From Candidatus Wallbacteria bacterium (GTDB taxonomy: Bacteria; Muiribacteriota; JAQTZZ01), in assembly GCA_028687545.1 (NCBI GenBank), contig JAQTZZ010000016.1, positions 1 through 64,000 of the forward strand: a DNA stretch of 64,000 nt, given 5' to 3'. Below are positions 1,948 to 35,900 of this stretch, in pieces (positions within the stretch are counted from its first letter, which is position 1; the number at the start of each line of letters is the position of its first letter). The notes beneath the pieces are model-generated. The model did no database searches. It was not told where the DNA came from and saw only the letters and a program-made list of their open reading frames with translations. The position numbers were made by a program, and so were the translations under genes.

Positions 1948-2313
1948 ATGTGGAAAATTCTGATTGGTTTTCTAGGGACTTTCATTTTAGGCTTTTTTCT
2001 GGGTTACCGCAAAGGCGGAAACAGTGAAAGTTGTGACGATCTTGAGGAAGACACAAGATGCGTGGTTTTTCAAGTACAGGCTCCCGAAGCTGCAGGAGTA
2101 ACCCTGGCCGGGGATTTTAACAACTGGGACCCCAAAGCCGATGAACTTTTCAACCTGGGCGGGGGGAAATGGGGAGTTACGCTCTACCTGAAACCTGGAA
2201 GATATCAATACAAGTTCGTGATCGACGGACTGAAATGGATCGAAGACTCCAACTCCCGGGAGACCGAAGATGACGGTTACGGGGGAAGAAGATCGATCAT
2301 TTACGTGGAATGA
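1948..2313 (+). CDS. Small membrane-anchored CBM48 (AMPK-type glycogen-binding) protein
   Basis: 121 residues. Residues 1-20 form one membrane anchor followed by a positively charged RKGG stretch. Residues about 38-120 are a CBM48/AMPK-beta-like carbohydrate-binding module, recognised by LAGDFNNWDP, the aromatic strand YQYKFVIDG and the W in LKWIEDSNS. There is no enzymatic domain. It starts 10 nt after dnaN with GAGGAG as SD, and its stop overlaps the next gene (ATGA). Family knowledge: such modules bind glycogen or maltodextrin, or act as protein-interaction domains. Its task here is unknown. The same module type recurs at the C-terminus of the HD-GYP protein in the microcompartment operon (29975-31429). 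Confidence 0.8.
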   Translation: MWKILIGFLGTFILGFFLGYRKGGNSESCDDLEEDTRCVVFQVQAPEAAGVTLAGDFNNWDPKADELFNLGGGKWGVTLYLKPGRYQYKFVIDGLKWIEDSNSRETEDDGYGGRRSIIYVE

Positions 2314-26616: not shown

Positions 26617-27654
26617 TTAGTATTTCCCACTTCCTGCAGCCTGGCCGCTGACAATCGCTACAGACGCGCTGGCTCCGATTCTGGTAGCGCCTGCTTTCAC
26701 CATTTCCATGGCTGTCTTGGTGTCGCGCACGCCTCCTGACGCTTTTACTCCCATGTCTTCGCCTACCGCTTCCCGCATCAGGGCTACGTCCTTGACTGTG
26801 GCGCCGCCTGGCCCGAAACCGGTGGATGTCTTGACAAAATGAGCCCCTGCAGCCTTGGAAAGGGTGCAGCCGATGATTTTCTCCTCATCAGTAAGAAGTG
26901 CGGTCTCCAGGATCACTTTCACAATCCTGTCGCCCGCTGATTCGACTACGCGGCGGATGTCTTCCTCCACCAGCTTGAAATTTTTGGATTTCAGGGCTCC
27001 GATGTTGATCACCATGTCGATCTCGCCGGCCCCGTCAGTGGCAGCCCTCCTGGTTTCATAAGCTTTCACGCTGGAGGCAGTAGCTCCCAGCGGGAAACCG
27101 ATCACAGTGCAGACCCGGACCTTGGTGCCGGCAAGAATTTTGGCAGCCAGGGAAACCCAGGTGGGATTGATGCAGACTGAAGCGAACTGATATTTTTTGG
27201 CTTCTTCACACAGAGCGATCACCTGATCGGCTGTGGCATCCGGTTTAAGCAGGGTGTGGTCGATATAGGAGGCAAGATCTCCAGGGGCGGATGGAATTCC
27301 GGCACCTGACCCGATCCTGATTGCGCCAGCTTCCATCAGTTTGGAGACTGAGTTTTTGTTGTTCACGATGCAATAGCCGCAGCCTGTGCAATTTCCAGGA
27401 TCGCAGAAACTGCAGGCGCCTGAGGAAAGCAGCATTTCAGGCTTTGACGTTGCTTCCAGTGCGGCAGGTGAATGACCGGCAGAAAGGCTTTGTTCCAAGG
27501 CTTTCAATTCAGAGATAGCGTGTTCGAGAATCCCGATCTGCTTCCTGACCAGGTTCAGCTGGGGAGATTCACAACTGGGACGGGAAGTCTGGCTTCCTCC
27601 CAGCTGCTTTTTCACTTCTTCAGTGATCTTGCGGATCAGCTCGTTGTTATCCAT
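26617..27654 (-). CDS. deoC: Deoxyribose-phosphate aldolase with encapsulation peptide and Cys cluster
   Basis: 345 residues, about 120 longer than ordinary DeoC. Residues 1-20 ([20 protein letters not shown]) form an amphipathic helix typical of microcompartment cargo. Residues 21-80 are a linker with a short coiled stretch. Residues 81-95 are a five-Cys cluster (Cys 81, 84, 89, 92, 95). The aldolase barrel runs from about 129 to 343 with Schiff-base Lys275 (VKTSTGF), Asp213 (EIDMVIN) and Lys304 (VKASGG). It cleaves deoxyribose-5-P to acetaldehyde and glyceraldehyde-3-P. The ATG at 27654 has GGAG at 6 nt. It is last gene of the BMC operon. Confidence 0.93.
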
Positions 27655-27677
27655 GGGTTGCTCCAATTTTCAGCATG

Positions 27678-28013
27678 TTACTTTTCTTTTCTATGTTTTT
27701 TTTCCTTTTTGTCGTCAGTTTCTTCTGCCTCAGGCTTTTCCAGATTCGGAAGTATTGATTCCACGTCCTCATGCGGATTCGCAATCAGGCGGGCAGACAA
27801 CAGTTCGCCGACTTTCTGGGCAGCAGCGGCTCCAGCCTCGATGGCAGCCTGGCAGGCACCCACATCACCTCTGACAAGAACCGTCACCATCCCCACACCG
27901 ATCTTACGGTATCCCACCAGTGTGACATTGGCCGCCTTGGTCATGGCGTCAGCCGCTTCCACGGCTCCCACCATCCCCCTGGTTTCCACCATTCCCAATG
28001 CTCTTTTTTCCAT
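27678..28013 (-). CDS. BMC-H shell protein (PduA/EutM-like)
   Basis: 111 residues with a single BMC domain (residues 3-90): [59 protein letters not shown]-like end ([10 protein letters not shown]). The last 20 residues are a charged tail ([15 protein letters not shown]). Such proteins form hexamers that tile the facets of a bacterial microcompartment. The second of two adjacent ATGs (28013) is used because it lies 5 nt after AGGAGG. It is translationally coupled to the EutN gene upstream. The nearly identical paralogue at 34534-34818 lacks the charged tail. Confidence 0.93.
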
Positions 28014-28297
28014 CATTCCCTCCTATCTGCAATTTCTATCTTATCAACGATACCAACGATCACCGCAGAGAGCGGCACTTTATCGTCATGGAAAAGTTCG
28101 GCTGCTACAGATCCCTCATTCACCACCAGCACGGTTTCACCTGCGCCGGCTCCCACAAAATCAACTGCGATCAGTTCGCCTTTCTCGTCCTTGCCCGTTA
28201 ATGGAGAAACAGGCTGCACCAGCAAGAGTTTGTAACCATCAAAACGCGGTTCCTTGCAGGTAGACACCAAATTTCCTTTCACCCTGGCGAGGATCAC
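28013..28297 (-). CDS. BMC-P vertex protein (EutN/CcmL family), copy 3
   Basis: 94 residues of the EutN/CcmL/PduN family: [25 protein letters not shown], the conserved [18 protein letters not shown] and ending [10 protein letters not shown]. Members form pentamers that cap the vertices of the shell. The start is a GTG whose first bases overlap the stop of the preceding EutN gene (AAGTGA). Three such genes occur in this operon, as is usual for SPU-type and several other BMC loci. They differ enough that they are not recent duplicates. Confidence 0.92.
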
Positions 28298-28584
28298 TTT
28301 CCACCATCCTTTGATTTATCCAGAAGCAGGATTTCGTCCACGATTCCCAGAATCGAAGCATCAGTCGGGACAAGCGGATTTTCCATGGTGTTGCTCGCTT
28401 CCCTGGAAGTCACGTAAAAAACAAGTTCATCGGTCCCAGCGCCGATCAGATCAGTGGCGATGATCTGTTTCCCGGTTTTTTCCAGTTCTCCGTTCAGCGG
28501 CTGGATCAGGATCAGCTTATATCCATCAAGAGAAGGATATTTGTGAGATGCCACCACATTTCCGCAGACGCGAGCAAGATTCAT
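28294..28584 (-). CDS. BMC-P vertex protein (EutN/CcmL family), copy 2
   Basis: 96 residues. Family signatures: NLARVCGNVVASHKYPSL, YKLILIQPLN, DLIGAGTDELVFYVTSREA, and ILGIVDEILLLDK. It is a pentameric vertex-capping shell protein. It overlaps rpiB by 4 nt upstream and the third EutN by 4 nt downstream, so the order rpiB-eutN-eutN-bmcH is made from one coupled mRNA. The central loop (TSREASNTMENPL) is specific to this copy and may define a different surface. Confidence 0.92.
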   Translation of the reverse strand: MNLARVCGNVVASHKYPSLDGYKLILIQPLNGELEKTGKQIIATDLIGAGTDELVFYVTSREASNTMENPLVPTDASILGIVDEILLLDKSKDGGK

Positions 28585-29249
28585 TTTTTCCTCACTAATG
28601 CGATGCCTTTGTCCCTGAGAAAGTCTCTGGCCAGCGGTGTGACAATTGTACCGGATCCTACAGTCAGTTCAGATCCGGAAAAAATTTTCAGATCATCAAT
28701 TGTGATCAGCTTTTTATCCGATACATGAGCGGGTTTTCCGGATTTGGCAAGACCGAATCCAGAGATGATTTCGGAGATCAGCCGTTCGATTCCTGAAAGG
28801 CTTAATGAGAACATTTTTTCAATGGCAGTGATCTTGTCAATCCTGGCCTGATGCCTGCCACCCTCATAGCCGGTGGCAAGCCAGAGTTCCAGCAGTTCCA
28901 TGGTTTTGCCTGTCCCTGTGACCTCGCTGCCTAGAGTGAGAAGATTTGTGTCATTATGTTTGCGGCTGTTTTGTACAATGAAATAGTCATTGCCGCAGAC
29001 AGCTCTGACACCTGGAACTTTATTAGCTGCGATCGCTGAGCCGACGCCTGCGCCGTCGATCATCACACCACGTTCGCATTCACCGCCTGCCACCAGCCTG
29101 GCTACCTTTAATGCGAAATCAGGATAATCGGAATTTTGTTGCTCGAAAGCACCTACATCTATGACTTCATGACCTTTTTTTTTCAGGTTTTCCAGAACTG
29201 ATTCACGCAATTTCATGCCGCGGTGGTCGCTGCCGATCGCTATCTTCAT
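28581..29249 (-). CDS. rpiB: RpiB/LacAB-family sugar-phosphate isomerase with C-terminal extension
   Basis: 222 residues; ordinary RpiB is about 150. Residues 1-145 are the isomerase: GSDHRGMKL, DYPDFA, AANKVPGVRA, RKHNDTNLL, GYEGGRH. The usual catalytic Cys (ICGTG in E. coli) is replaced by Asp65 (MIDGAGVG), an unusual change. Residues about 146-166 (FSLSLSGIERLISEIISGFG) form an amphipathic helix that may serve as an internal encapsulation signal. Residues 180-222 (with IVTPLARD) resemble the small 'T-P-x-A-R-D' tail seen in other BMC-associated proteins. It would interconvert ribose-5-P/ribulose-5-P or a relative. SD GGAAGG. Confidence 0.88.
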   Translation of the reverse strand: MKIAIGSDHRGMKLRESVLENLKKKGHEVIDVGAFEQQNSDYPDFALKVARLVAGGECERGVMIDGAGVGSAIAANKVPGVRAVCGNDYFIVQNSRKHNDTNLLTLGSEVTGTGKTMELLELWLATGYEGGRHQARIDKITAIEKMFSLSLSGIERLISEIISGFGLAKSGKPAHVSDKKLITIDDLKIFSGSELTVGSGTIVTPLARDFLRDKGIALVRKK

Positions 29250-29269: not shown

Positions 29270-29455
29270 TTACTGTTTATTAGAGCCTTTATCCAGCTCA
29301 TTCAGCCGATACAGGTAAATTCCAAATGAGACATATCCCGAAACAATCAGAAGAGGAGAAACATGACCAAAAAGATTATCAGCCCTGTCGTTTACAAGAT
29401 ACAGGCTTGCATATCCAAGCAGCAGTAAAATAAGGGATAAGCTCAGGATCTTCAA
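29270..29455 (-). CDS. Small two-helix membrane protein in BMC operon
   Basis: 61 residues. Residues 3-20 (ILSLSLILLLLGYASLYL) and about 33-50 (SPLLIVSGYVSFGIYLY) are predicted membrane helices, and the tail is polar. It overlaps the pduT-like gene by 4 nt (ATGA) and ends 20 nt before rpiB, so it is embedded in the operon and translationally coupled. I do not recognise a family, and no membrane protein is a standard part of a BMC. It could link the operon products to the cell membrane or be a passenger. Confidence 0.6.
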   Translation of the reverse strand: MKILSLSLILLLLGYASLYLVNDRADNLFGHVSPLLIVSGYVSFGIYLYRLNELDKGSNKQ

Positions 29456-30000
29456 AACAGCACCGTTTCCAGGTCAGGATGAGGGTTAGGTATCACCACT
29501 TCCTCGATGATCAGTCCCTTTTCCTTGAATTCGGCATTCACTGCTGCGATGGAAGCTTTGCAATCTCCCACGCTGCCTGTGGCCAGTACAAAAGCCTTGC
29601 CGCCCAGCCCCTTGGCCAACCGTATTTCAATCAGATGTACCCCTGCGGCTTTGACCATTGTATCAGCCGAAAGAATGGCTCCTGTCAGGGAGAATGTCTC
29701 GACAACCGCCAGAGCTTCAAGTTTTGCCACATCAGTTGCAGCATTGATGGCCGGAAAGACTTCCTCTGCCACATTTGGAATCACGATGCTGTCCACCAGA
29801 TATTCTGATCCCACTTGTTCGCCTGCCTGGACGGAATTTTCCACTGATCCGACCTCGCCGCCGACCACAATTAAATATTTTCCCGGGCAGACCGGGCGGG
29901 AATCGATTAAAAAAACATCGGCAGCTTTGAGCATGGCATCGGTTGATTCAATACCTTTGGCAATGCTGCGCAGTTCAATTACCCCGATCGCTCTTTCCAT
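29452..30000 (-). CDS. pduT: BMC-T shell protein, PduT-like with Fe-S Cys
   Basis: 182 residues made of two fused BMC domains (about 1-90 and 94-180): AIGVIELRSIAKGIESTDAM and the second ALAVVETFSLTGAILSADTM. The trimer forms a pseudohexamer. Cys38, in SRPVCPGKYL, falls at the place of the PduT Cys38 (CPGK), which binds a [4Fe-4S] cluster at the trimer pore. The whole N-terminal half resembles PduT closely. With the PduS-like gene in the same operon, it suggests electron passage across the shell. It starts inside the 3' end of the HD-GYP gene (26-nt overlap). Confidence 0.88.
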   Translation of the reverse strand: MERAIGVIELRSIAKGIESTDAMLKAADVFLIDSRPVCPGKYLIVVGGEVGSVENSVQAGEQVGSEYLVDSIVIPNVAEEVFPAINAATDVAKLEALAVVETFSLTGAILSADTMVKAAGVHLIEIRLAKGLGGKAFVLATGSVGDCKASIAAVNAEFKEKGLIIEEVVIPNPHPDLETVLF

Positions 30001-31429
30001 TCTCGACTCCTACGTTGATCACTGAACTCTGACCGCGGACGGAGTTTTCCACATTATCCTTGGATTCCGGGTCAACCACCCAATTCCCGTCCACTATGAA
30101 CTTGTATTCATATTTTCCCTTATTTAACTCCATGTCTTTGATCCAGTATCCGTCGTTTGACAGAGTCATCGGATCCATGGTGGCGTTCCAGAAATTGAAA
30201 TCACCGATCAGGTAAACGGTTTTGGCCTGTGGTGCGAGATAGCGGAAATGGATCTTGACCTTCTCTTTGTTGCAGTATTCTGTGAACAGCTTGGTATCAC
30301 GCTCCAGCGCGGAGAGAAATGCCGTCACGATTTTGGGGTCAAACTGGGATCCGGAGTTTTTTCTGATCTCATCCACTGCGAATGCGAGCGGCAGTCCCTC
30401 ACGGTATGGCCGGTTGGAAGTCATGGCGTCAAAAGTGTCGGCAACTGCGATGATCCTTGCAAAAAGTGGGATGGTGTCACCTTTCAGGCCCTCAGGATAT
30501 CCTTTGCCGTCATACCTCTCATGGTGATAACGGATGGAGGGGATTTTGTCCTGTAGAAAAACGATTGGGTCAACTATAGATGAGCCGATGTTCGGGTGAT
30601 TCTGGATGATCTTGAACTCCATGTCAGTCAGTTTAGCCCGCTTGCCGATGATTTCTTCCGGAATTCCGATCTTGCCGATGTCATGCAGGAGAGCGCCAAA
30701 TCTGAGTTCCTTGAGTTCCTTGGAGTTGAATCCCATTGCCTTGCCTACTGAAACCGAATACTCAGTTACGCGGTGGGAGTGTCCCCGTGTGTATGCATCT
30801 TTGGCATCGATGGTATTGGCGAGAGCCCTGATGGTACTGAGATAATTCTCCTCAAGTTCTTTATAAAGCCTGGCGCTGTCAATGGCGACTGCAGCCTGGT
30901 TCGCGAAAGCCTGGAACAGCTCCACGTCTTCTTCCAGGAAAGTGTCGTTCTTTAAACTGTTGAGGATCTCCATCACGCCGATGATTTCTCCGTGTTTCAA
31001 ACGCAAAGGGACGCACATGATGGACTTGGTGATGAAGTTGCTCTGAGAGTCAGTGTTGAACCAGCGGTTGTCGGTCTTGACGTCCTTGATCAGCAGAGGT
31101 TCTCCGCTCTTGGCAACCGTACCTGCGATACCCCGCCCCAACGGGACACGGATGCTTTTAACCATATCGCCGGACTCGCCGGTGGCCACTTCAAAGACCA
31201 GTTCGCTGGTTTTTTTGTCCAGCAGAAGGACAGATCCGGCTTCGGCGTCGAGCACTTTGCAGGCTGCCTGGACGAGCAGATCGAGCAGCACATTCAGTTC
31301 AGTAATCCTGTAGATGGATTTGTTGACTTCAAGCAGAAGGTCTCGATTCTCTTTCTCTTTCTTGAGGATTTTCAGCTCATTCCTTAGTGTTTCAAGATTT
31401 TCCGGATTAGTCATTTTATCCTGTTCCAC
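29975..31429 (-). CDS. GAF - HD-GYP phosphodiesterase - CBM48 fusion protein
   Basis: 484 residues, soluble. Residues about 30-190 are a GAF sensor domain. Residues 195-385 are a complete HD-GYP domain: HSHRV, HDIGKIGIP (His249-Asp250), HHERYDGKGYPEGL (GYP at 310-312) and ADTFDAMTSNRPYR, so cyclic-di-GMP hydrolysis is expected. Residues about 390-473 are a CBM48/AMPK-type module (VYLIGDFNFWN, YEYKFIVDGNWVVDPE). The gene lies between pduS (4-nt gap) and pduT (overlap), firmly inside the BMC operon. The start may be GTG 31429 (GGAG upstream) or ATG 31414. I know of no such signalling fusion as a standard BMC component. Confidence 0.9.
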   Translation of the reverse strand: MEQDKMTNPENLETLRNELKILKKEKENRDLLLEVNKSIYRITELNVLLDLLVQAACKVLDAEAGSVLLLDKKTSELVFEVATGESGDMVKSIRVPLGRGIAGTVAKSGEPLLIKDVKTDNRWFNTDSQSNFITKSIMCVPLRLKHGEIIGVMEILNSLKNDTFLEEDVELFQAFANQAAVAIDSARLYKELEENYLSTIRALANTIDAKDAYTRGHSHRVTEYSVSVGKAMGFNSKELKELRFGALLHDIGKIGIPEEIIGKRAKLTDMEFKIIQNHPNIGSSIVDPIVFLQDKIPSIRYHHERYDGKGYPEGLKGDTIPLFARIIAVADTFDAMTSNRPYREGLPLAFAVDEIRKNSGSQFDPKIVTAFLSALERDTKLFTEYCNKEKVKIHFRYLAPQAKTVYLIGDFNFWNATMDPMTLSNDGYWIKDMELNKGKYEYKFIVDGNWVVDPESKDNVENSVRGQSSVINVGVENGKSDRGN

Positions 31430-31432
31430 TTC

Positions 31433-32743
31433 CTACTCCCCGATCCTGATATAATTTGAAGTTACTTCCATCACTGAACCTGAAATCGAAGCATGGCAGT
31501 TGCTTGATAATTTAGCTTCCGCTCTGGGCGCAGCGATTTTTTCACCGGCTTTGACTTTCTGGCCGACCCTGACAAGAGGAACTGCTGGTTCTCCTATATG
31601 CTTCGCTAAATTGATTTTCACGTTTGAAGGTTTGAAAGCAGTATCCTGCGAAGAAATCGGCAGCTGATAATATTTTTCCAGCCTGAAGCGTTTCAAAAGT
31701 CTGGAGGGAGGAATTTTCATCCATTCGCGCTGAGAGCGTACTGCATCAGGTTTTTCCTGGTGAGGGTTGGCGACCTTCTGCTTTTTGAGCTCTGATTTGA
31801 GATACTGATTGATATTTCGAGGAGAAAGTCCCATCGGGCAGCCGAATTCACAGGCTCCGCATTCACAGCAGAGGAAAGCAGCAGGAATTCTGGCTGGACT
31901 GTTGTGAACTATGCTCTGCATGATCCGGTGTGGTTCCAGAGCATGACCGAGCTGATATCTGGGACAGGTGCGGGTACAGTCCGTGCAGTTGCAGCAGACT
32001 GCAAAATCGCGTTTCAATTCACGCTGAATATTCAAGGCACGATTCAGCGAGATTGGATGGTTTTCCGGAAGTACCAGGATTCCGCTGGTGGTTTTTTCGA
32101 TCACTGAGTCCTGGCTGATCATTTTGCCCATCATCGGACCACCATCGAGCAGCACAAACTTGTCACCTATGGTTCCTCCGGCTGATTCCAGAGCTTCTCT
32201 GACTGATGTACCGATTGGATAAAAACCCACTACCGGATTCTTCACCTCACCTGTGATTGTCACTACTCTTTCCGTGACCGGAAGGTCAGAGCTGACAGCC
32301 TGGAAAACCTGATAGATGGTGGCTACATTATCGACCACAACCCCGACCTGAAGCGGAAGCCCACCCTCAGGTACGATTCTGCCGGTTACTTCATAAGTCA
32401 GAGCCTGTTCGTCTCCAGCAGGATAGAAATTACCCAGCCCGAAAACTTTCAGGCAGTCGGCTGAGGAAGCCAGCCTGGATAAAGTCTCAAATGACTCGTA
32501 CTTTTCTTTGAGGGCCAGGATTGCCGACTGGGCTCCGGTTATTTTACGGATCAATGAGAGTCCTTTCAGAATTTCCCCTGGATATTTTTTCATCAAAAAC
32601 TGATCTGACTTGAGCAGGGGTTCACACTCAGCACCGTTTCCGATCACTGTTTCCACCCGGGAGTTCAGCTTGAAATATGTAGGGAATCCGGCTCCGCCGG
32701 CTCCCACGATTCCTGCTTCCCTGATTTTCGAGAGTTCTTCCAT
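31433..32743 (-). CDS. pduS: PduS-like RnfC-family flavo/Fe-S NADH oxidoreductase
   Basis: 436 residues. The N-terminus, VGAGGAGFPTYFK and IGNGAECEPLL, is the RnfC/NuoF-like NADH/FMN-binding fold. An SLBB domain lies near 160-230 (VTITGEVKNPVVGFYPIG). Two [4Fe-4S] motifs follow: Cys 250-253-256-260 and Cys 292-295-298-302. A biotinyl-lipoyl-like C-terminal region (VPLVRVGQKVKAGEKIAAP) closes the protein. In the Pdu compartment, PduS reactivates cobalamin and is proposed to pass electrons through PduT. No cobalamin enzyme is encoded here, so NADH re-oxidation is a likelier role. Confidence 0.9.
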   Translation of the reverse strand: MEELSKIREAGIVGAGGAGFPTYFKLNSRVETVIGNGAECEPLLKSDQFLMKKYPGEILKGLSLIRKITGAQSAILALKEKYESFETLSRLASSADCLKVFGLGNFYPAGDEQALTYEVTGRIVPEGGLPLQVGVVVDNVATIYQVFQAVSSDLPVTERVVTITGEVKNPVVGFYPIGTSVREALESAGGTIGDKFVLLDGGPMMGKMISQDSVIEKTTSGILVLPENHPISLNRALNIQRELKRDFAVCCNCTDCTRTCPRYQLGHALEPHRIMQSIVHNSPARIPAAFLCCECGACEFGCPMGLSPRNINQYLKSELKKQKVANPHQEKPDAVRSQREWMKIPPSRLLKRFRLEKYYQLPISSQDTAFKPSNVKINLAKHIGEPAVPLVRVGQKVKAGEKIAAPRAEAKLSSNCHASISGSVMEVTSNYIRIGE

Positions 32744-32780: not shown

Positions 32781-34208
32781 TCAAATAATCTTGAAGTAGT
32801 CCACCAGAACACAACGGCGTTTGCGGGTAAAAGTTTTGGCGGTAGTGACACCTTCTCCAGTCGGTGTGCAGATAGTGAGCGTGGTCGGACCTTCCCCGTC
32901 AAAGCCAAGTCCATTGTATGATGAACCGTTTTTAACGAAAATAGTCGTGTTAATCTGCCTGGCCAGATCATGGAGATTCTGAATATTTTTGGAGTGCATG
33001 ATCGCGGTGTGCAGATTGCCTAATTCCACTTCGCAGGCCAGATCGATGGCTTGAGAGATGTTTGCGACCCTGACGAGCGGGAGCACCGGCATCAGAAGCT
33101 CGGTGAGCACGAACGGATGTGAGGCGGGAGTTTCGCAGAGTATCAGCCGGATCTGTGAACCTACATTGATGCCGATTTCCCGGAGAATTACCGCTGCATC
33201 CCTGCCGATGAATTTCCGGTTGGGGCCTCCCTGCGGATTCATAATCACTTTTTCCAGTTTTTCGATCTCGTCTTTTTTAAGTTCATAAGCGCCGTTGACG
33301 CGCATTACTTCTTTCAGTCTGTCTGCGATCTGGTCCACTGCGATGATCTCTTTTTCTGCGATGCAGAGTACATTGTTGTCAAAAGATGCACCGTTCACAA
33401 TGTCGCGCCCTGCTTTTTCCAGATCTGCGGTTTCATCTACAACTACAGGAGGATTTCCTGGTCCGGCTGCCATCACCTTCTTGCCGCTCTTGAAAGCTTC
33501 GTGGACGACTGCTTCGCCTCCGGTGACAACCAGGAGCCTGGCTTTTTTATGATTCATCACTGCTCTTGAAGTTTCCATGGACGGGTTTTCGATGGCTGTG
33601 ACTATGTTCAGCGGGCCGCCAACGCTCAGGGAAGCTTCGTTCATAAGTTCCACAGCGCGCAGTGATGAACGTCGGGCAGCCGGGTGATTGTTGAAGACGA
33701 CGGTATTGCCAGCAGAAACCATGCTGATACTGTTGTTGATAACTGTGGCGGCAGGATTAGTTGAAGGAGTAATGGAAGCAATCACTCCGAAGGGAGCGCA
33801 TTCTTCCAGGGTCAAACCATGATCGCCTCTGAAAATCAGGGGTGTGAGGTCTTCCAGGCCGGGAGTCCGCTCGATCGCCAGCATGTTTTTCTTGATCTTA
33901 TCGGCGACCTTGCCAAAGCCGGTTTCCTCAACCGCAGTCCTGGCAAGAAACTCCACTTCCTTCCGGCAGAAGGAACGATAGGCGGAAATGATCTCATCCC
34001 GTTTTTTTAAGGTGGTCTGGCTGAGCTGCCTGAAAGCGATTGCAGCTGCCTCGAAGGCTTCATCGACAGTCGGGAACACCCCTTTTCCGCCCGGCCGTGG
34101 TGCTGTTGATGTTTCCTGAGCCTGTGAGACAGCAGGTTCTTCACGTTTTTTCAGGCGATAAACCACCTGTTCGACGATTTTTTTTAATTCTTTTTCGTCA
34201 AGGGACAT
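32781..34208 (-). CDS. pduP: CoA-acylating aldehyde dehydrogenase (PduP/EutE-like) with encapsulation peptide
   Basis: 475 residues. Residues 1-20 (SLDEKELKKIVEQVVYRLK) are an amphipathic cargo helix, followed by a Pro-rich linker and the ALDH domain from about 45. NAD-site motif ITPSTNPAATVINNSI; catalytic Cys282 in GASFDNNVLCIAEKE; further HTAIMHSKN (the conserved His region) and PTTLTICTPTGEG. It converts acetaldehyde, CoA and NAD to acetyl-CoA and NADH, which would be the step after DeoC. It lies between eutN and pduS. The symbol is by analogy. Confidence 0.93.
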   Translation of the reverse strand: MSLDEKELKKIVEQVVYRLKKREEPAVSQAQETSTAPRPGGKGVFPTVDEAFEAAAIAFRQLSQTTLKKRDEIISAYRSFCRKEVEFLARTAVEETGFGKVADKIKKNMLAIERTPGLEDLTPLIFRGDHGLTLEECAPFGVIASITPSTNPAATVINNSISMVSAGNTVVFNNHPAARRSSLRAVELMNEASLSVGGPLNIVTAIENPSMETSRAVMNHKKARLLVVTGGEAVVHEAFKSGKKVMAAGPGNPPVVVDETADLEKAGRDIVNGASFDNNVLCIAEKEIIAVDQIADRLKEVMRVNGAYELKKDEIEKLEKVIMNPQGGPNRKFIGRDAAVILREIGINVGSQIRLILCETPASHPFVLTELLMPVLPLVRVANISQAIDLACEVELGNLHTAIMHSKNIQNLHDLARQINTTIFVKNGSSYNGLGFDGEGPTTLTICTPTGEGVTTAKTFTRKRRCVLVDYFKII

Positions 34209-34242: not shown

Positions 34243-34512
34243 CTATGTTTGCAGGTTGATGGTATCCACTATGCCGACTACGATGCAGTCCACCGGTTTT
34301 TTATCGGTCTTGACGGTCTGTCTGGCTGAGGAGCCGCTTACAAGCAGCACTGTCTCAGCTGCACCCGCCCCTACCGTATCCACTGCTATATGGAATTTTC
34401 CAGTGGGTTTCAGTTCGATCGTCAATTCCTCGACGACCAGGAATTTGAAACCGACAAGGTTAACATCTTTCCTGGTGGCGACAACAGTGCCACAGATTTT
34501 TCCAAGAAGCAT
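34243..34512 (-). CDS. BMC-P vertex protein (EutN/CcmL family), copy 1
   Basis: 89 residues: MLLGKICGTVVATRKDVNL, FKFLVVEELT, DTVGAGAAETVLLVSGSSARQ, and the ending IVGIVDTINLQT. It is closest of the three copies to the canonical EutN length and form. It is a pentameric shell vertex protein. It sits between bmcH (21-nt gap) and pduP (34-nt gap), the two short gaps carrying SD sequences. Function at the vertex is a family inference. Confidence 0.93.
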   Translation of the reverse strand: MLLGKICGTVVATRKDVNLVGFKFLVVEELTIELKPTGKFHIAVDTVGAGAAETVLLVSGSSARQTVKTDKKPVDCIVVGIVDTINLQT

Positions 34513-34533: not shown

Positions 34534-34818
34534 TTACTTTTCGCCTTTACCGATCGGCAGCACATCTTCGAGACTGTCGTGCGGTCTCGGGATCACATGG
34601 ACAGACACCAGTTCTCCGACTTTCTGGGCGGCTGCTGCGCCGGCGTCGGTCGCGGCTTTCACTGCAGCGACATCGCCCCGCACCATGGCAGTAACATAGC
34701 CGGAACCGATCTTTTCCCAGCTCACCAGTCTCACATTGGCGGCTTTTACCATGGCGTCTGCGGCTTCAATCATGGCGACAAGCCCTTTGGTTTCGATCAT
34801 TCCCAAAGCGTCTTTCAT
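34534..34818 (-). CDS. BMC-H shell protein (PduA/EutM-like)
   Basis: 94 residues, one BMC domain, no tail: [79 protein letters not shown]. It matches canonical PduA/EutM-type hexamer formers, including the KIGSG pore loop. The AGGAGG SD lies directly upstream. The gap upstream of it is occupied by the inverted-repeat element 34867-35140, which separates it from pduL. If that element ends transcription, this would be the true first gene of the main BMC transcript. Confidence 0.95.
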
Positions 34819-35202: not shown

Positions 35203-35856
35203 TTAATTAACGATTTCAACCAGTTCACCGCCTTTGATCAGTGCGGAGTTACCCTCGTCGGTGTCGACATGCATCTCTAAGGCAAATTTATCAGATACTC
35301 TGCAGAGTACTTCTCCGAATATCAGAGCTCTGCCTCCGAATGTTCTCACCCTTACTTTCTGTTTATCTGTCACTCCCAGCCGCATGGCATCCCGAACCGT
35401 AAAATGGATATGTCTGCAGGCGATGATCACTCCCTCTTTCAGGGTCACAGCTCCGGCAGGTCCGACAATCACCAGCTTTTCCGATCCGGCAAGGTCGCCT
35501 GAATCGCGGACAGGAGGGTTAATGCCTAGAACATAACTATCGGTTCTGGAGACTTCTACTTGAGTCTGCACTCTATATGGACCAAGAATCCGGACTTTCT
35601 GGAAAATGCCCTTGCAACCGATCAGAGTTACTACTTCATTGGCAGCATATTGTCCGGGTTGCGACAGGTCCTTCTGCTTTGTGAGCAGTGCCTTGTCGCC
35701 GAACAGGATCTTGAAATCAGCTTCTGAAACATGCAGGTGACGGTTGGAAACCGCGATCGGCAGCAGTTTGCTTTTATCCGCAGCTTCATTTCCGCCTAAC
35801 GAATAGTTTTTAAGGATTTCGGCAGTCACTTTCTGAACGAGTTCTTCATTGTTCAT
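35203..35856 (-). CDS. pduL: PduL-type phosphotransacylase with encapsulation peptide
   Basis: 217 residues. The N-terminal helix NNEELVQKVTAEILKNYSL is the cargo signal usual in BMC PduL. The two PduL barrels carry the metal-binding His motifs SNRHLHVSEADFKILFG and CRHIHFTVRDAMRLGV, plus LGPYRVQTQVEVSRTD. It converts acetyl-CoA and phosphate to acetyl phosphate and recycles CoA inside the shell. The ATG at 35856 follows GGGAGATG; an earlier in-frame ATG at 35871 is less well placed. It is first of the BMC genes, 29 nt after the PepSY-like gene but separated from the shell genes by the inverted-repeat element. Confidence 0.94.
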   Translation of the reverse strand: MNNEELVQKVTAEILKNYSLGGNEAADKSKLLPIAVSNRHLHVSEADFKILFGDKALLTKQKDLSQPGQYAANEVVTLIGCKGIFQKVRILGPYRVQTQVEVSRTDSYVLGINPPVRDSGDLAGSEKLVIVGPAGAVTLKEGVIIACRHIHFTVRDAMRLGVTDKQKVRVRTFGGRALIFGEVLCRVSDKFALEMHVDTDEGNSALIKGGELVEIVN

Positions 35857-35900
35857 GACACATCTCCCCATTTTGTTTACAAAACTTGTATTGAATAGTT

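Follow-up and report, generated by a model that had tools for sequence, protein, structure and literature searches.

A putative cyclic-di-GMP phosphodiesterase with an AMPK-type carbohydrate-binding module, encoded within a sugar-phosphate utilization microcompartment operon

In a 64,000-nt stretch of Candidatus Wallbacteria bacterium DNA (contig JAQTZZ010000016.1, positions 1 to 64,000; hereafter the window), we find a gene for a GAF-HD-GYP-CBM48 protein inside a complete sugar-phosphate utilization (SPU) operon of a bacterial microcompartment (BMC). The gene is a lineage-specific accessory, found in one genome, and is not a standard SPU part. Its placement, an intact HD-GYP site, a GAF domain and the aromatic/lysine platform of the CBM48 module can be read directly from the sequence. 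We propose that the product may be a competent cytosolic cyclic-di-GMP phosphodiesterase, kept in the SPU operon of this lineage, made together with the shell, gated by its GAF domain and linked to glucan through CBM48; to this reading as a whole we give an even chance.

The gene runs on the minus strand from 31429 to 29975 and encodes 484 amino acids from a GTG start, confirming an open reading frame picked out earlier from the letters of the window (the sequence-only reading). The operon, all of it on the minus strand, encodes in order PduL phosphotransacylase (35203..35871), a BMC-H hexameric shell protein (34534..34818), a BMC-P (EutN/CcmL) vertex protein (34243..34512), a CoA-acylating aldehyde dehydrogenase (AldDH; 32781..34208), a PduS/RnfC-like flavo-Fe-S protein (31433..32743), the HD-GYP-CBM48 protein (29975..31429), a PduT-type tandem BMC shell protein (BMC-T; 29452..30000), an RpiB-type sugar-phosphate isomerase (28581..29249), two further BMC-P vertex proteins (28294..28584 and 28013..28297), a second BMC-H shell protein (27678..28016) and the deoxyribose-phosphate aldolase DeoC (26617..27666). 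DeoC-type (PF01791) and RpiB-type (PF02502) enzymes thus stand alongside BMC shell genes, and since these two enzymes define the SPU type (PMC8217296), we assign the operon to it. SPU microcompartments are thought to use sugars from degraded DNA (PMC4207490, PMC8217296), and more than 280 SPU loci are known across 26 phyla (PMC8217296).

Two of these enzymes carry extensions. DeoC has a 130-aa N-terminal extension with an encapsulation-peptide-like helix (20 residues) and a cysteine-rich stretch (15 residues), the latter perhaps a site for a metal or an Fe-S cluster in a lumen-destined aldolase. RpiB, at 222 aa in total, has a C-terminal extension of ~70 aa that is missing from most loci of family f5 (149-161 aa). 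In another genome (G002), a gene for an aldehyde ferredoxin oxidoreductase-type protein (AFOR, 721 aa) immediately follows the SPU DeoC gene (L090 1958-4123, minus strand).

The HD-GYP-CBM48 gene follows pduS after 3 nt, not the 4 nt of the sequence-only reading, and overlaps the BMC-T gene by the 26 nt given there. The BMC-T start codon is conserved among homologues, and a GGAG motif lies 6 nt upstream of it, within the HD-GYP-CBM48 coding sequence. The GC content of the gene (0.495) is similar to that of its neighbours, and its GC3 (0.616) is slightly above theirs. An intact gene, the short gap, the overlap and a neighbour-like GC content together suggest that co-expression with the BMC has been maintained.

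The protein consists of a GAF domain (residues 44-184; 30878..31300, minus strand; Pfam GAF_2/GAF, E 2.5e-22), an HD-GYP domain (residues 202-367; 30329..30826, minus strand; Pfam HD_5/HD-GYP, E 1.6e-41) and a C-terminal CBM48, or AMPK-beta-type, module recognized by profile and fold matches (residues 389-475; 30005..30265, minus strand), where Pfam AMPK1_CBM covers residues 399-458 (E 3.2e-11) and CBM_48 residues 389-450 (E 2.2e-08). All Pfam matches exceed their curated cut-offs, and the E-values rule out chance domain matches; the architecture is as the sequence-only reading had it. The fold of the GAF domain matches those of cyclic-nucleotide GAF domains (5w10, 3jab). At the N-terminus, AlphaFold2 predicts one long helix (residues 9-41), and inspection by eye finds no encapsulation peptide on the protein; we therefore do not assume a luminal location.

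The CBM48 module most closely resembles that of AMPK. Its closest solved sequence is AMPK beta1 (1z0n), and by fold it matches an AMPK beta subunit (6c9f_B; 85 columns, 1.8 A), with a beta-sandwich core modelled by AlphaFold2 at pLDDT 82-96 in agreement with the profile. Three AMPK glucan residues are kept, W414 corresponding to W100, K443 to K126 and W450 to W133. By ungapped extension of the alignment, over what we take to be the AMPK tail letters at positions 146-150, the distal contacts L146, T148 and N150 align with V464, G466 and S468, and G147 with R465, so that the T148- and N150-type C-terminal contacts appear to be changed. In AMPK, W100G and K126Q abolish glycogen binding, and W133L and G147R weaken it (PMC6274970). 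Glucan sensing by this module is plausible, and the genome encodes the glycogen synthase GlgA.

Modules of this type are, however, common in the phylum in contexts unrelated to glycogen, so the fold alone is no proof of glucan binding. An alignment of 49 CBM48 domains shows the first platform tryptophan in every one, the second in 46 and the lysine in 32. The platform is also kept in membrane-anchored proteins encoded beside lptF and uvrD, and its conservation alone is no proof of glycogen binding either. Family f5 has, in 21 of its 24 genomes, a gene for a small CBM48 protein that carries a membrane helix at its N-terminus, next to a gene for a 1020-aa GAFx4-HD-GYP protein, which makes the link between CBM48 and HD-GYP wider than the fusion in the window; the charge pattern suggests that this CBM48 lies outside the cytoplasm. 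The f5 pair (L109 1493-5045, minus strand; equivalents in L110-L116) is arranged as the CBM48 gene followed by the GAFx4-HD-GYP gene, downstream of uvrD. In the window itself, a gene at 1948-2313 (plus strand), flanked by dnaN and an lptF-type gene, encodes a 121-aa CBM48 protein that likewise has an N-terminal membrane helix, and the CBM48-lptF neighbourhood recurs in L121.

These observations bear on whether the module senses glucan at all. It may instead be an Ig-like docking or allosteric module, holding the enzyme to the shell or to a partner protein, for example, a possibility that we rate a little below even. The positive-inside rule makes it unlikely that the membrane-anchored proteins beside lptF and uvrD bind cytoplasmic glycogen; the CBM region of AMPK beta1 also binds the protein GDE independently of its glycogen residues (PMC6274970); and the distal binding residues appear to be changed in the window protein. 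Glucan binding is favoured, on the other hand, by the retention of both platform tryptophans and the lysine, by the lack of an apparent membrane anchor on the HD-GYP-CBM48 protein and by the presence of glycogen synthase.

The gene has no counterpart at comparable loci. The phylum of the window is represented by 40 species in our set, of which 33 match the BMC-T query, and we inspected BMC-T loci in 31 other phylum members and in 60 genomes from outside the phylum. In 77 of these loci (31 in the phylum and 46 outside), the PduS and BMC-T genes can be read on one strand. None of the 77 has an HD-GYP gene between the two, and the gap between them is at most 294 nt in every case. This rules out a conserved SPU component and runs against the expectation, raised by the sequence-only reading, that homologous SPU loci would carry the gene. 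The family has one other member (G001), whose contigs end exactly at the PduS-BMC-T position, and the count therefore stands without it.

The fusion is equally isolated, in line with the earlier impression that it is rare. A search with the HD-GYP/CBM48 junction found CBM48 in many contexts and no second HD-GYP-CBM48 fusion in 382 genomes besides that of the window, and the partial matches that reached toward the HD-GYP part, once fetched, had no HD-GYP domain. The full protein gave only two unrelated distant matches in a collection of named genomes. In a quick tree, in which long rows are not securely placed, the HD-GYP part stands alone on a long branch, and the phylum supplies no orthologue of it. 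The HD-GYPs of family f5 are a separate lineage, forming a clade of their own (98% SH-aLRT) that excludes the window protein; an origin of the fusion from the f5 CBM48 and GAF-HD-GYP gene pair is not supported.

Cyclic-di-GMP genes do adjoin BMC genes in other lineages. Three genomes of 1.2-1.4 Mb from a distant phylum (G133, G271 and G385) have a diguanylate cyclase gene of sCache-HAMP-GAF-GGDEF type directly upstream of the first BMC-H gene of the SPU operon, at a distance of 47 nt in G133 and 81 nt in G385. These sCache3-HAMP-GAF-GGDEF genes lie at L175 16525-18318 (minus strand), L180 590-2356 (plus) and L236 2338-4119 (plus), and the operon continues with BMC-H, TIM, PduL, acetate kinase, BMC-P, AldDH, PduS, BMC-T, RpiB, DeoC and SHMT. 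In both genomes tested, G133 and G271, this cyclase is the only GGDEF gene. Taken with the gene in the window, these cases indicate that cyclic-di-GMP enzymes joined SPU operons more than once. Two congeneric species of family f4 (G008 and G014) have a separate PduS-BMC-T pair that is preceded, at 23 or 31 nt, by a REC-HD-GYP gene (L102 10068-11081, minus strand; L123 3586-4599, plus strand). A CHASE2-GAF-GGDEF gene is found near the SPU shell locus in the same genus (L101 10741-13026; L125 3056-5335). In a further genome (G248), a BMC operon ends with a 5'-nucleotidase gene that shares 4 nt with a HAMP-GAF-GGDEF gene (L181 96-1763, minus strand).

Such genes are not generally enriched near BMC loci, and it is individual lineages that stand out. 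Around the 60 outside BMC loci (0.95 Mb), we observe five GGDEF genes against 2.63 expected (P = 0.13, not significant) and no HD-GYP gene against 1.97 expected, so that general clustering is not shown by these counts. The earlier remark that BMCs do not normally include signalling enzymes thus holds on average, but overlooks cyclic-di-GMP enzymes of the opposite sense that open SPU operons in another phylum.

The main rival to our reading is an accidental but maintained insertion: a general GAF-HD-GYP paralogue landed by chance between pduS and the BMC-T gene, and is active and co-expressed but has no compartment-specific function. The gene is a singleton among 78 comparable loci, its genome has eight HD-GYP genes, and the density of GGDEF and HD-GYP genes around the outside loci is not above chance. 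We nevertheless regard this explanation as less likely than not, given the intact reading frame, the close spacing on both sides, the neighbour-like GC content and the cyclases at the head of SPU operons in three distant-phylum genomes.

The HD-GYP domain is apparently catalytically competent, judging from its aligned residues. Its best solved relative is PmGH, a GAF-HD-GYP protein of Persephonella marina that is itself a cyclic-di-GMP phosphodiesterase (PDB 4mcw; E 9e-55 over residues 30-377) and is also the top fold match. All seven core metal ligands are kept: PmGH H189, H221, D222, H250, H276, H277 and D305 correspond to H217, H249, D250, H278, H302, H303 and D331. The HD motif (249-250) and the GYP triad (310-312, inside HHERYDGKGYP at 302-312) are where the sequence-only reading placed them. 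The glutamate that binds the third metal is absent, Y213 replacing PmGH E185, which sets the protein apart from trinuclear HD-GYPs. By the metal-site classes of PMC8177086 and the products expected of them, this substitution predicts a dinuclear site and one-step hydrolysis to a linear dinucleotide.

Cyclic-di-GMP is the most likely substrate. Eight HD-GYP and 13 GGDEF matches occur in the genome, and 11 of the 13 GGDEF domains could be read, all of them canonical GGEEF. Serine at the diagnostic GGDEF position marks the Hypr-type synthases that make cGAMP; all 11 have aspartate there, and no Hypr-type domain is found among them. It is because the readable GGDEF domains are canonical and non-Hypr that we favour cyclic-di-GMP. 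That the enzyme acts instead on 3',3'-cGAMP is very unlikely: some HD-GYPs, such as PmxA, do prefer cGAMP (PMC8177086), and the solved relative that ranks second is the cGAMP-specific HD-GYP V-cGAP3 (5z7c), but PmGH matches better and the readable GGDEF domains leave no known source of cGAMP. It is just as improbable that the domain mainly senses cyclic-di-GMP as a receptor, with scant turnover, and passes the signal on through GAF or CBM48: DvhD (9rbz), an HD-GYP protein from a study of cyclic-di-GMP receptor regulation (PMC13090378), is among the fold matches, but it lacks the HD and HH pairs in the alignment, whereas the window protein keeps all catalytic ligands.

If the product is the GAF-gated phosphodiesterase that we propose, its action may be pictured in three steps. 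The enzyme would likely hydrolyse cyclic-di-GMP, probably to pGpG because the third-metal glutamate is missing, and cyclic-di-GMP would then drop when the compartment is made; this drop may act on the compartment itself or on the cell as a whole. The GAF domain would probably bind a small ligand and set the activity. Finally, with about even chances either way, CBM48 would tether the enzyme to cytoplasmic alpha-glucan or report on it, and the use of scavenged deoxyribose-type sugars would then be coupled to the cell's glycogen and cyclic-di-GMP status. The link of the compartment to cyclic-di-GMP and alpha-glucan put forward by the sequence-only reading thus has its prerequisites in this genome (canonical GGEEF domains and a glycogen synthase), but is not supported as a general SPU feature; what was observed there is borne out with small corrections, and its interpretation is partly supported, for a singleton. 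Its further suggestion, that the BMC is turned on when glycogen runs low, finds no direct support: the window contains no cyclic-di-GMP riboswitch or other Rfam RNA, and no cyclic-di-GMP receptor was found in it.

In the usual picture, the substrate of a catabolic microcompartment controls it through transcription factors or riboswitches. More tentatively, and with the balance rather against it, cyclic-di-GMP may be a recurrent control input of SPU compartments, built in independently by different lineages: through a phosphodiesterase with a glycogen-type module in the window, through a REC-HD-GYP adjoining PduS-BMC-T in another family and through a cyclase heading the SPU operon in a distant phylum. 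If so, assembly or use of the organelle would be tied to the sessile or motile state and to carbon storage. A phosphodiesterase made with the shell and bearing an AMPK-type glycogen module would also be a candidate for a bacterial parallel to the AMPK idea, in which a reading of the energy store becomes a signalling output.

The operon shares with described SPU loci (PMC4207490, PMC8217296) the genes for DeoC, RpiB, AldDH, PduL, PduS, BMC-H, BMC-T and BMC-P, and differs from them in an extra gene, that of the putative cyclic-di-GMP phosphodiesterase, which separates pduS from the BMC-T gene. The words "GAF" and "cyclic" are absent from the 2014 BMC taxonomy (PMC4207490), as are "GGDEF" and "cyclic" from the main text of the 2021 catalogue (PMC8217296), and among the papers searched none pairs "bacterial microcompartment" with "HD-GYP" and four pair it with "GGDEF". 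With PmGH, the protein has in common GAF, helical linker and HD-GYP in identical order, the seven core ligands and GYP; PmGH differs in having E185 for a third iron, and in having neither a CBM48 module nor a BMC context. The CBM48 module has the fold and the W100/K126/W133 platform of AMPK beta (1z0n, 6c9f), but its C-terminal contacts appear to differ, and it is fused to a phosphodiesterase whereas that of AMPK serves a kinase. In Streptomyces, cyclic-di-GMP controls glycogen breakdown via GlgX (PMC9530166), so that the nucleotide is likewise tied to glycogen; there it binds the debranching enzyme directly, whereas here the predicted degrading enzyme itself bears the glycogen-type module.
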